A stretch of DNA of 64,000 bases from Pelomonas caseinilytica (GTDB lineage: Bacteria > Pseudomonadota > Gammaproteobacteria > Burkholderiales > Burkholderiaceae_C): assembly GCF_021353235.1 (NCBI RefSeq), contig NZ_JAJTWT010000008.1, positions 1-64,000 of the forward strand, written 5' to 3'. Every line of letters starts with the position of its first letter. Position 1 is the stretch's first letter. Below, piece after piece: positions 58,832 through 63,766 of the stretch. Under the pieces are notes generated by a model that had not been told where the DNA came from, searched no databases, and saw only the letters and a program-made list of their open reading frames with translations. A program made the position numbers and the translations under genes.

Positions 58832-59722
58832 TCAGCCCTTGACGCCGCCGGCCGTGAGCCCGGAGACGATCCAGCGCTGGGCAAGCAGGAAGACCGCCGT
58901 GATCGGCAGGCCCGAGAGCACGGCCGCGGCTGCGAAGTCGCCCCAGAGAAAGCGCTGGTCGTGCAGGAAATACTTCGACCCCACGGCCAGCGTCAGGTTG
59001 CCCTCCTCGCGCAGCAGGACGGAGGCCACCGGGTACTCGATGATGGTGCCGATGAAGGCCAGCACGAAGACCACCATCAGGATGGGCACGGCCATGGGCA
59101 GCAGCACGCGCGAGAAGGCCTGCCAGTGCGTGGCGCCGTCGACCTTGGCGTTCTCCTCGATCTCGACCGGGATGGTTTCGAAGTAGCCCTTGATGGTCCA
59201 CACGTGCGTCGCGATGCCGCCGAGGTAGGCCAGCACGAGGCCGGCGTGCGTCTCGACGCCCAGCGCCGGCACGTAGGTGCCGATGGTCTCGAAGATCGCA
59301 AAGATGGCCACCAGCGCCAGCACGGGCGGGAACATCTGCAGCAGCAGCATGCCGTTGAGCACGGGCTTGCTGAAGCGGAACTTGAGCCGCGCGAAGGCGT
59401 AGGCCGCCGTCGTGGAGATGGCCACGATGAGGAAGGCCGAGGCGGTGGCGATCTTGATGGAATTCCAGAGCCAGGTGAGCACGGGGAAGGGCGGCTGCAC
59501 GAGGCTGCCGTCGGCGGCCTGGTAGGGGATGCCGAGGGCCAGCTTCCAGTGCTCCAGGCTGATCTCGGCCGGGATCAGGCTGCCGGTGGCGAAGTTGCCT
59601 GGCCGCAGCGAGATGGACACGACCGCCAGCAGCGGGAAGAGGGTGACGGCGATGAAGATCCACATCACGGCGTGGGCCGCGAAGGAGCGCCAGCGGGCTT
59701 GCTTGCCGAGGACGATGGCCAT
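58832..59722 (-). CDS. malG: maltose/maltodextrin ABC transporter permease MalG
   Basis: Inner-membrane permease of 296 residues with six predicted helices. The EAA loop that docks on MalK reads [25 protein letters not shown]. Pairs with MalF. It is separated from malF by 101 bp containing a palindromic repeat, unlike the overlapping junctions elsewhere in the operon. Confidence 0.93.
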
Positions 59723-59743: not shown

Positions 59744-59820
59744 GGCCACAGAGGCACAGAGACACAGAGAAGGACAAAGGAATTTCCCCTGTGCCTCTGT
59801 GCCTCTGTGGCTGTGTTCGG
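59744..59820. repeat. CCACAGAG/CTCTGTGG palindromic repeat, copy 1
   Basis: Imperfect inverted repeat filling the malF-malG gap. Left arm is built of GGCCACAGAGGCACAGAG and ACACAGAG units; right arm reads GTGCCTCTGTGCCTCTGTGG then CTGTG. Copy 2 at 62549-62637 has the same orientation and near-identical arms. Repeats of this type are widespread in Burkholderiales intergenic DNA, to my knowledge. Confidence 0.85.
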
Positions 59821-59823
59821 TTT

Positions 59824-61407
59824 TCATTTCTGCGCCTTCGCCGACAACCGCAGATTGATCAACGACAGCGCCGCGACGAGGAAGAAGATCAGCGTCGAGA
59901 TCGCCGCAGCCAGGCCGAAGTCCGAGCCGGAGTCGCGGAAGGCGATGCGGTAGGTGTAGCTGACCAGGATGTCGGTCTGGCCCGCCGGCAGCTTGGTGGA
60001 GAGGAAGTCCGGCCGGCCGTCGGTGAGCAGGGCGATCAGCACGAAGTTGTTGAAGTTGAAGGCGAAGGCGCTGACCAGCAGCGGGGCCAGCGGCTTGATG
60101 ATCAGCGGCGCGGTGATGCGCAGGAAGTTCGTGGCCGGGCTCGCGCCGGCCAGGGCCGAGGCCTCGTACAGGTCGGCGGGGATGGCCTTGAGCAGGCCTG
60201 AGCACAGGATCATCACATAGGGATAACCCAGCCAGACGTTGACGATGAGGAGCATGGCCTTGGCCAGCAGCGGGTCGGCGAACCAGGCGGGCTTCACGCC
60301 GAAGAGGGCGTCCAGGATGGCGTTGATCTCGCCGAAGTTCTGGTTGAACAGGCCCTTGAACACGAGGATGGAGATGAAGCCCGGCACCGCATACGGCAGG
60401 AAGAGCAGGGTGCGGTAGGTGGTGCGGAACCGCATGCCCTCCCAGTTCAGCATCACCGCGAAGAGCATGCCGATGGCGGTGGAGAAGACGACGGTCAGCG
60501 CGGAGAACACCACCGTCCAGCTGAAGATGGACAGGAAGGGGCCGCGGAACTCGTCGTCGAAGAGCATGCGGGCGTAGTTGCCCACGCCGATGAAGGCCTT
60601 GAAGCCGGGCTGCAGCGTTTCGCCGGTGGCCGTCTGGAAGAAACCGGTGTCGCGGTTGGGCTTGAAGACCGCGCCGTCGGCGGTGCGCGTCAGGCTGCCG
60701 TCGCCGTGGGCCGTCCATTGCGGCTTGACCGGTCCGAATTCGCGCAGGCCGAGATAGTGCAGCTCGGTCTTGTCGGGCAGGACGAGCACGAGTTGCGACA
60801 GCGCCTCGCGGTGCTGGATCAGCTCGGGCAGGGACAGCGCCGCCCCGCCGGGCCTGGTGGCTGCATCGGCCGGCGTGGCTTCGACCCGCAGCGGCTTGCC
60901 GGCGCGCAGCGCCAGGGGCGGCGACACCCATCGCGGAGCGGTCTCGCCCTCGGCACGCAGCACGAGCCGGTATTCGGCGCCGCTGGCGTGCAGGCTGTAG
61001 GCCAGCACCTGGTCTTCGACGGCGTCGTGCTGTTCCAGCAGGTATTCGCGCACACGCGCCTCGCTGAGCAGGTGGGTGCTGGAGTAGTTCGTGAAGCCGA
61101 TCTGCGCCGTGTAGACCAGCGGGAAGGCGATGAACACCAGCATGCCCGCCACGCCCGGGAAGAGGTAGCGCCAGGCGAAGCCGCCTCGGCTCAGGTAGAC
61201 GTAGAAGCCCGCCGTGAAGAGGACCAGCAGCCCGGCCGCCCAGGCCGCCTGGCCCGTGGCATAGACGACGAAGACGAGGTAAAGGGCCGCCAGCATGGCC
61301 ACGATGGCGGCGGGCCAGTGCAGCCAGCGGGCCAGCTTCTCGGCCGGCGTGGGAGGCCGCGTCGTGTAGCTGCCCTGGCCCAGGGAGGAGGAAGTGGCGG
61401 CGTTCAT
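59824..61407 (-). CDS. malF: maltose/maltodextrin ABC transporter permease MalF
   Basis: 527 residues, long like E. coli MalF. Two or three N-terminal helices, a large periplasmic P2-like loop (about residues 105-270), then a core permease with the EAA loop EASALAGASPATNFLRITAPL. Start at 61407 overlaps the malE stop (ATGA, 61404-61407). The longer open frame upstream is inside malE. Confidence 0.93.
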   Translation of the reverse strand: MNAATSSSLGQGSYTTRPPTPAEKLARWLHWPAAIVAMLAALYLVFVVYATGQAAWAAGLLVLFTAGFYVYLSRGGFAWRYLFPGVAGMLVFIAFPLVYTAQIGFTNYSSTHLLSEARVREYLLEQHDAVEDQVLAYSLHASGAEYRLVLRAEGETAPRWVSPPLALRAGKPLRVEATPADAATRPGGAALSLPELIQHREALSQLVLVLPDKTELHYLGLREFGPVKPQWTAHGDGSLTRTADGAVFKPNRDTGFFQTATGETLQPGFKAFIGVGNYARMLFDDEFRGPFLSIFSWTVVFSALTVVFSTAIGMLFAVMLNWEGMRFRTTYRTLLFLPYAVPGFISILVFKGLFNQNFGEINAILDALFGVKPAWFADPLLAKAMLLIVNVWLGYPYVMILCSGLLKAIPADLYEASALAGASPATNFLRITAPLIIKPLAPLLVSAFAFNFNNFVLIALLTDGRPDFLSTKLPAGQTDILVSYTYRIAFRDSGSDFGLAAAISTLIFFLVAALSLINLRLSAKAQK

Positions 61408-62644
61408 TTGTTCAGCAGCATCCGCGCGGCGGCGCCGTCGAGGGCGTCCTTGGGGCTTTGCAGTCCGTTGGTGATGGCTTCCAGCGCCGCGTCCATCGCG
61501 GTCCAGAAGCGCCCCACCTCGGGGATGTTGGGAATGGGGGCGCCGTTGCGGGCGTTGGTCATGCTGGCCGCGATCAGCGGATTGACCGACAGCTCGGCAT
61601 AGAAGGCCTTGTTGGCCGGCACGCCGATGGGGACGTCGGCGTCCAGCACCTTCAGCGCCTCTGGGCGCATCAGGTGGTTCTCGATGAACTCCTTGGCGAT
61701 GTCCTTGTTGTGGCTGGGCGCGGAGATCATGCAGCCCAGCACGCCGACGAAGCTCTTGCTCGGCTTGCCCGGGATGACGGCGGGAATGGGGCCGACGCCG
61801 ATGTCGACCTTGGCCTTGCGCGCGTTGTCCCAGGCCCAGGGGCCGGAGATCATCATCGCGATCTCGCCGCGGGCGAATGCGGATTCCATCTCGGCGTAGT
61901 TGGCGCCCTTGGGCATGTGGCCGTCGCGGATCAGGCGGTCCAGCATGCGCGCGGCCTGCACCGCCCCGGGGGTGTTGACGCCCACCTGGCGCGGGTCGAA
62001 ATCGCCTTGCGCGTCGCGGCCGAAGATCTCGCCGCCGGCGCCTGCCAGCATGGGCCAGGTGAAGAAGCTCTTGTTGTAGTGCCAGAGGATGGCGTGCCGG
62101 CCCTGGGCCTGCAGTTGCTTGTCGAGCGCGATGACCTCGTCCCAGGTGGCGGGCGGCTGCTTGACGAGGGCCTTGTTGTAGATGAGCGCCGTCGTCTCGA
62201 TGGCGATGGGGTAGCCCCAGATGCGCCCCCGATAGGTCATGGCCGTCCAGGCCTGGTCTTCGACCTCGGCCTTGAGCCGGGCCGACGGCCGCAGCGGCGT
62301 CAGCAGGCCGGCCTTGGCCCACTCGCCGACCCGGTCATGCGGCCAGCAGAAGATGTCCGGCCCCTTGCCGGCGCCCGCGGCCTGCTGGAACTTGTCGGTG
62401 GCATCCACCGGGTGCTCCACCACCACCTTGACGCCGGAGGCCTTTTCGAAGGCGTCGCCCACCTTCTGCAGGCCGTTGTAGGCCTTGTCGCCGTTGATCC
62501 AGACCAACAGCCGGGGAGTGGGCTCTGCCTGGGCCGGCTGCAGGAATGCGCCACAGAGGCACAGAGCCACAGAGGTGCTCAGGCGCTTGAAAAGGCCTGC
62601 TTTCTCTGTGTCTCCGTGTCTCTGTGGCTGTGTTTGGAATTTCT

Positions 62645-62648
<4 letters not shown>
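61404..62648 (-). CDS. malE: maltose/maltodextrin-binding protein MalE
   Basis: Periplasmic binding protein of 414 residues (SBP_bac_1), beginning mature sequence EPTPRLLVWINGDKAYNGL as in E. coli MalE; WPHDRVGEWAKAGLLTPL, YPIAIETTALIYNK and MISGPWAWDN are also conserved. The signal peptide is odd: residues 4-34 (QTQPQRHGDTEK through STSVALCLCG) are encoded by the CCACAGAG repeat copy at 62549-62637, with predicted cleavage after QPAQA at residue 41. No other in-frame start could give a signal. GGAG precedes the ATG at 62648, which overlaps the malK stop (ATGA). Confidence 0.93.
62549..62637. repeat. CCACAGAG/CTCTGTGG palindromic repeat, copy 2, inside malE
   Basis: Same family and orientation as copy 1 (59744-59820). 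Read on the minus strand, the first arm (AACACAGCCACAGAG shared exactly) encodes the charged n-region of the MalE signal and the second arm (GCTCTGTGCCTCTGTGG shared in most positions) encodes its hydrophobic core VALCLCG. Confidence 0.85.

Positions 62649-63766
<1,118 letters not shown>

Follow-up and report, generated by a model that had tools for sequence, protein, structure and literature searches.

Small palindromic repeats that read in frame into bacterial proteins are a known kind of element, and the closest described system is the RU-2/YPAL repeat of Yersinia, which in YPO1552 is reported to supply a portion of a predicted signal peptide (Delihas 2007, PMC2759123, PMC2229807). According to the accessible text of these papers, the N-terminal codons of this gene contain a dispersed small palindromic repeat in frame, which makes up residues 1 to 30 of a predicted 41-residue signal, and relatives of the protein in other genera carry signals without relation to the repeat (PMC2759123). 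Comparable features are seen in the system described here. The Yersinia example, as presented there, concerns a single putative exported protein, whereas we find repeat-coded N-termini in six conserved, recognizable families and in several repeat phases, with native signals at the same start codon in close relatives and with malE and GH18 fusions that are conserved across species. Judged against that text, the malE case looks like a stronger, recurrent variant of the RU-2 precedent.

Three further systems are related in part. The Rickettsia palindromic elements (RPE; Ogata 2000, 2002) are in-frame insertions in conserved genes, as related in PMC2229807 and PMC10969869; in the accessible parts of these sources they figure as tolerated segments of metabolic and other conserved proteins and not as export signals, a contrast that is one of description only. 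Enterobacterial fusions with ERIC/RU-1f resemble ours in their hydrophobic repeat frame, which is predicted to form membrane segments and in one case (YE2643) a signal, but most of them are, in the available text, small ORFs that may be non-functional according to the author (PMC2759123). The palindromic amphipathic repeat coding elements (PARCEL) also combine dyad-symmetric DNA with an amphipathic coding pattern and an association with membrane proteins; as far as the accessible text goes, they form repeated domains within surface proteins and not the signal itself (PMC2996958). In the literature searched, which included few subscription journals, no precedents beyond Yersinia RU-2, RPE, ERIC/RU-1f, and PARCEL were found, nor was the 16-letter arm sequence, although an absence from such a sample weighs little. 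As far as these searches tell, what is new here is that such fusions recur in conserved families, that several frames are used, and that native signals have visibly been replaced.

The window, i.e., the whole stretch of 64,000 nucleotides of Pelomonas caseinilytica DNA that was analysed, contains genes in the order malK-malE-malF-malG (Table 1), the neighbors being named from sequence. The malE product matches SBP_bac_1 (E = 2.9e-45, Pfam search), and fold and gene neighbors are those of a putative maltose-binding protein of the MalE type. A palindrome with arms of 25 nt each, 88% complementary and spaced by 29 nt, is read in malE's own frame, with an outer CTGTGTT that reaches position 62634, and covers about residues 5 to 34 of a predicted 41-residue Sec signal. 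The left arm together with the outer end encodes TQPQRHGDTEK and the right arm encodes SVALCLCG. Thus, the in-frame palindrome, the division into a charged n-region and a hydrophobic core, and the further intergenic copy between malF and malG, all of which had been claimed in the sequence-only reading, were found where that reading had put them. Its claim that mature MalE follows directly on the repeat fails, however: about eight residues, AFLQPAQA, separate the right arm from the predicted cleavage site, and mature MalE would be expected to start at EPTPRLLVW. The ancestral core is lost from this signal, and only the cleavage end is retained. A lipoprotein signal was considered and rejected, as inspection of the malE signal by eye revealed no lipobox. 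Within the window, the bare 8-mer CCACAGAG is unremarkable (6 matches versus 2.5 expected; 5 of 100 shuffles reach 6).

Table 1. Coordinates of the mal genes and the parts of the palindrome in the window, and of further genes with repeat-coded N-termini
Feature	Position	Strand	Remark
malE CDS	61404..62648	minus	414 aa, extracellular solute-binding protein; Pfam SBP_bac_1, SBP_bac_8
Predicted signal peptide of malE	62526..62648	minus	41 codons, MKKFQTQPQRHGDTEKAGLFKRLSTSVALCLCGAFLQPAQA; cleavage predicted after AQA
ATGA shared by malK stop and malE start	62645..62648	minus	ATGA or GTGA in 18/18 same-genus loci
Element outer end	62628..62634	minus	AACACAG in malE reading; shared with many other genomic copies
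Left palindrome arm as read by malE	62604..62628	minus	codes basic n-region
Inter-arm loop, 29 nt	62575..62603	minus	codes ~KAGLFKRLST; codon spacing identical in 7/7 carriers
Right palindrome arm	62550..62574	minus	codes hydrophobic core
malK-like ABC ATPase gene	62645..63766	minus	373 aa; name from own sequence
malF-like permease gene	59824..61407	minus	probable start ATG 61407; name from sequence and place
Second repeat copy, intergenic malG/malF	59746..59810	.	read in sequence
malG-like permease gene	58832..59722	minus	296 aa; name from sequence and place
Outer membrane efflux protein (Pfam OEP)	L159:1671		repeat in frame at gene start
SoxA/TsdA-type cytochrome c	L152		repeat in frame at gene start
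GH18 glycosidase	L198:1693		repeat in frame at gene start
TonB-dependent receptor	L214:2840		repeat in frame at gene start
GDSL lipase of R. puraquae (G018)	L350:428-1768	minus	repeat-coded N-terminus

The comparison with relatives covers 18 malE loci, since among 20 same-genus genomes G010 has no malE match and G016 is cut by a contig end. At all 18, with or without the repeat, the malE start overlaps the malK stop. The repeat-coded signal is present in seven species (G000, which is the home genome, and G018, G013, G005, G019, G012, and G007), so that an assembly error is unlikely. At ten loci the aligned malE 5′ ends have an ordinary, plain signal of 17 to 19 residues (e.g., MKWLPLVAALVAAPALA) from the same start codon, and one locus, G017, has a different long N-terminal extension. 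The distance from the start to the VWI motif is 47 to 48 codons in the carriers versus 23 to 25 in nine of the ten plain loci (the tenth, G003, reads LLIW). G002, G008, and G006 have the repeat family in the genome and a plain malE signal, and no repeat was present at the malE 5′ end in nine same-family or same-order orthologues read. Orthologues with the repeat-coded signal in a genome devoid of the repeat, which would have spoken against the sequence-only reading, were not encountered, because all seven carriers hold the repeat family elsewhere, with 33 to 253 arm matches each. The recruitment of a repeat as an export signal, as claimed in that reading, is thus supported by the sequence tests; an existing signal was apparently displaced, and export would not have been created anew.

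Two side observations concern the relatives. The malE extension of G017 (L048, near 1454) contains another repeat that resembles GGCTTGGGAGCGGCCCAGCGCTCGGCC, of which copies with up to four mismatches were seen once in the window (~41076) and at 7 of 107 G000 loci searched; since this repeat is itself dispersed, a second repeat family seems to have entered the same malK-malE junction. In addition, a record titled Methylotenera sp. (MAG Tobar12m-G18; L063) has a malE that is 90% identical to Roseateles-type malE, and the label of this MAG is probably wrong.

The repeat is abundant in the home genome. A count of genome copies, which had been proposed in the sequence-only reading together with a search for other genes with in-frame repeat-coded signals, gave 358 arm matches (up to two mismatches) in 6.0 Mb on 40 contigs versus 23 for a reversed control, which rules out that the arms occur by chance. 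At least 118 different paired copies were identified, and half the arm count suggests about 180. The 118 copies have two 24-nt inverted arms, which was also the search criterion, and therefore have the form of a short element with terminal inverted repeats; the dispersal in many copies is that of a small palindromic repeat or MITE-like element. The outer ends are mostly of the AACACAG/AACAAAG or AAATGCAA/AAAGGCAA types, and the loop is 10 to 61 nt long, with 18 nt in 44 of the 118. Five copies are clustered locally within 18 kb (L155; G000:C12:727000-745000). Arm matches are present in 14 of 20 same-genus genomes and absent from six. When 200 genomes were sampled from the family, seven had matches at one mismatch or fewer: two belong to the same genus, two belong to other genera and have 31 and 34 matches, in one the matches form a simple tandem array, and the last two have one match each. 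Several arm pairs in G053, which like G032 belongs to another genus of the family and has arm matches, show a wider spacing of the opposing arms, and the element may also have a longer form.

REP elements with RAYT have a GTAG or CGTC tag at one end (PMC3733652, accessible part). Such tags lie close to either end in only 1 of 118 copies from G000 and 3 of 54 from G018. Furthermore, a search for mobilizing enzymes that covered the Y1 family gave three Y1_Tnp matches in the home genome, none with an exact CACAGAG or CTCTGTG within ~3.3 kb around. Membership in the REP/RAYT group was rejected on both counts.

What sets the repeat apart is how it reads. The 118 copies were translated in both orientations and three frames (708 translations), with three dinucleotide shuffles and genomic stretches as controls and with thresholds of our own choice that were set once. 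Frames free of stops amounted to 90%, versus 45 to 51% in the shuffles and 74% in genomic stretches, and 58% of the 708 had a positive part followed by a hydrophobic part without a stop, versus 1.0 to 2.3% and 1.4%, respectively. The right half has a mean hydropathy of 2.05 in its best 10-residue window (shuffles, 0.20 to 0.36; genomic stretches, −0.12), and the left half, at −1.88 in its best window, is hydrophilic. The mean net charge of the left half, +1.33, is above that of the shuffles (+0.40 to +0.49) but not above that of genomic stretches (+1.42). Hence, the distinctive features are the hydrophobic half and the stop-free reading, not the charge of the left half, and the repeat is nearly frame- and orientation-blind as a signal-like coding sequence.

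Indeed, malE is not the only gene that uses it. Candidate fusions were listed by a rule that asks for an in-frame start close upstream and a coding-like base composition downstream, and fusions were chosen by eye from these lists; candidates that were judged by eye to have their own start downstream of the repeat, or a composition favoring the other strand, were discarded. The rule listed 23 of 118 copies in G000, of which five were kept (malE, OEP, SoxA-like, GH18, and TonB receptor), and 12 of 54 copies in R. puraquae (G018), of which three were kept (malE, GH18, and GDSL lipase). By a crude base-composition rule, which out-of-frame cases would escape, none of the 118 G000 and 54 G018 copies was flagged as intragenic with coding sequence in the same frame on both sides. 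All six fusion families are typical of exported proteins. Some members of the GH18 and GDSL families are intracellular, and for these two the assignment as exported therefore rests on the signals.

As in malE, most orthologues of the OEP, SoxA-like, TonB receptor, and GH18 fusions lack the repeat. Ordinary signals without it were found in 18 of 18 OEP orthologues, in 15 of 15 SoxA-like orthologues, and in all seven relatives in which the N-terminus of the TonB receptor was read in addition to that of G000 (a partial G016 match was left out). Weaker matches that reflect paralogues or the repeat alone are not in these counts (OEP in G010; SoxA-like in G004, G006, and paralogues). Among the GH18 relatives, 14 of 17 lack the repeat, and G018, G013, and G005 have it. 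In the GH18 gene of G005 (L270) the usual overlapping start is altered and an apparent new ATG directly adjoins the repeat, which seems to have come together with the shifted start.

All three phases of the left arm are in use among the fusions: PQRH in malE, an HRGTEAQR-like reading in OEP and GH18, and TEAQRH or TETQRH in the SoxA-like protein, the TonB receptor, and the GDSL lipase. The six have the features of Sec signals, i.e., a positive n-region, a hydrophobic core, and a small residue at the cleavage end, as predictions: with signal ends chosen by eye, the n-region charge is +1 to +5, the best 10-residue KD value is 2.0 to 2.8, and Ala is at −1 in six of six. These values are similar to those of four plain orthologues, which have core KD values of 2.5 to 3.1 and n-region charges of +1 to +2.

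We consider it highly probable that malE acquired, close to its start, an inserted copy of a dispersed palindromic repeat that has taken on the role of Sec signal peptide. In our model, a repeat of ~80 to 110 nt would land near the malE start; its purine-rich arm gives a hydrophilic stretch containing basic residues whichever frame is read and its pyrimidine-rich arm gives a hydrophobic core, and therefore an N-terminal insertion in either orientation and in any stop-free frame would give a signal-like sequence. In exported proteins the insertion would be tolerated and could displace the native core, with the native cleavage end staying in place, whereas a cytoplasmic protein with such an insertion would be mis-targeted, and the insertion would then be lost. 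With more reserve, we lean toward the wider view that the palindrome may act as a frame- and orientation-independent signal-peptide cassette, with repeated signal replacement in unrelated exported proteins. In this view, each arm is hydrophilic with basic residues as read on one strand and hydrophobic as read on the other, so that almost every insertion at an N-terminus would supply an n-region and then a core.

The history of the repeat at malE is complicated, because the seven carriers do not form one clade on the tree of mature malE (AU test, P = 1.7e-5). They are not grouped on a four-gene protein tree either (AU test, P = 2.3e-7), on which parsimony requires four changes, at least three of them forced by well-supported branches, although the backbone of this tree is largely poor (good support for 7 of 16 inner branches); four changes are likewise required on a DNA tree of three genes that leaves malE out. 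One insertion followed by plain descent was rejected as a simple story, as the carriers are not a clade on either tree. Eleven codons separate the last left-arm codon from the right-arm GTG in seven of seven carriers, and the right-junction letters of G000 are shared with G018, G013, G005, and G019. This common spacing and junction points to parallel insertions no more strongly than to shared 5′ ends moved by recombination or to repeated loss. Compared with the repeat consensus, the eight core codons of malE show, across the carriers, six silent changes and two replacements (neutral P = 0.014), with one replacement at a naturally variable repeat position; with eight changes in the test, modest support is given for a coding constraint on the core. 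The GH18 core has two silent and two replacement changes (P = 0.37), and the left arm of malE has three silent and four replacement changes, counted as distinct changes.

It is imaginable that the repeat is a neutral passenger, merely tolerated in front of a native signal that still works. The OEP gene fits this, and there the repeat extends and does not replace the signal, since much of the native core is kept, with a native-like VLVFWLGGGAAAVHA after the repeat; in malE, the SoxA-like gene, and GH18, however, the best hydrophobic window is mostly repeat-derived and the native ends are short, and we regard a passenger role as unlikely. Rather less likely still is that the repeat is kept for its RNA, as a hairpin early in the malE message that acts on decay or translation between malK and malE, the coding being a by-product. 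The malE repeat does fold strongly (−54.7 kcal/mol; z = −4.9; equaled by 0 of 200 shuffles), a further copy lies between malG and malF, and intergenic palindromes affect the stability of the E. coli mal mRNA. Against this, 10 of 18 relatives have no repeat at malE, and the recurrent placement in exported-type proteins stays unaccounted for. Furthermore, in five of the seven carriers, a small set that was aligned without G012 and G007, none of 25 pairs shows a two-sided change, 15 are invariant, seven are disrupted in one or two sequences, and one lacks pairing in every sequence; with no two-sided changes and several broken pairs, there is no sign of maintained pairing.

The least credible alternative, which we give hardly any chance, is a malE start further downstream, e.g., at the in-frame GTG that is indeed present in the right arm, with the left arm untranslated. 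Initiation there would leave the signal without its basic n-region, a ribosome-binding site before the GTG was not obvious by eye, and the conserved overlap of the malE start with the malK stop counters a start elsewhere, as had been raised in the sequence-only reading. The uptake of the repeat as a signal peptide is therefore the reading that we retain for malE.

In a 2018 survey of how Enterobacterales gain and lose signals, insertions of whole signals were found; transposable elements were tested as their cause with an insertion-sequence finder, which detected none nearby, and the survey argued that a working signal is unlikely to arise from randomly prepended residues (PMC5952966, accessible text). 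Such a finder may overlook palindromic repeats of the present kind, and the objection from random prepending, as it is put in that text, is answered by a repeat whose two arms supply, in nearly every frame, the two halves of a signal. Orthologous MalE, SoxA-like, and GH18 proteins with plain or repeat-coded signals also provide natural swap pairs. In sum, fusions of the malE type suggest an unusual route by which proteins come to a new export tag and, if the reading of the palindrome as a signal-peptide cassette is true, signal turnover via small repeats would be a general mechanism and not a curiosity.
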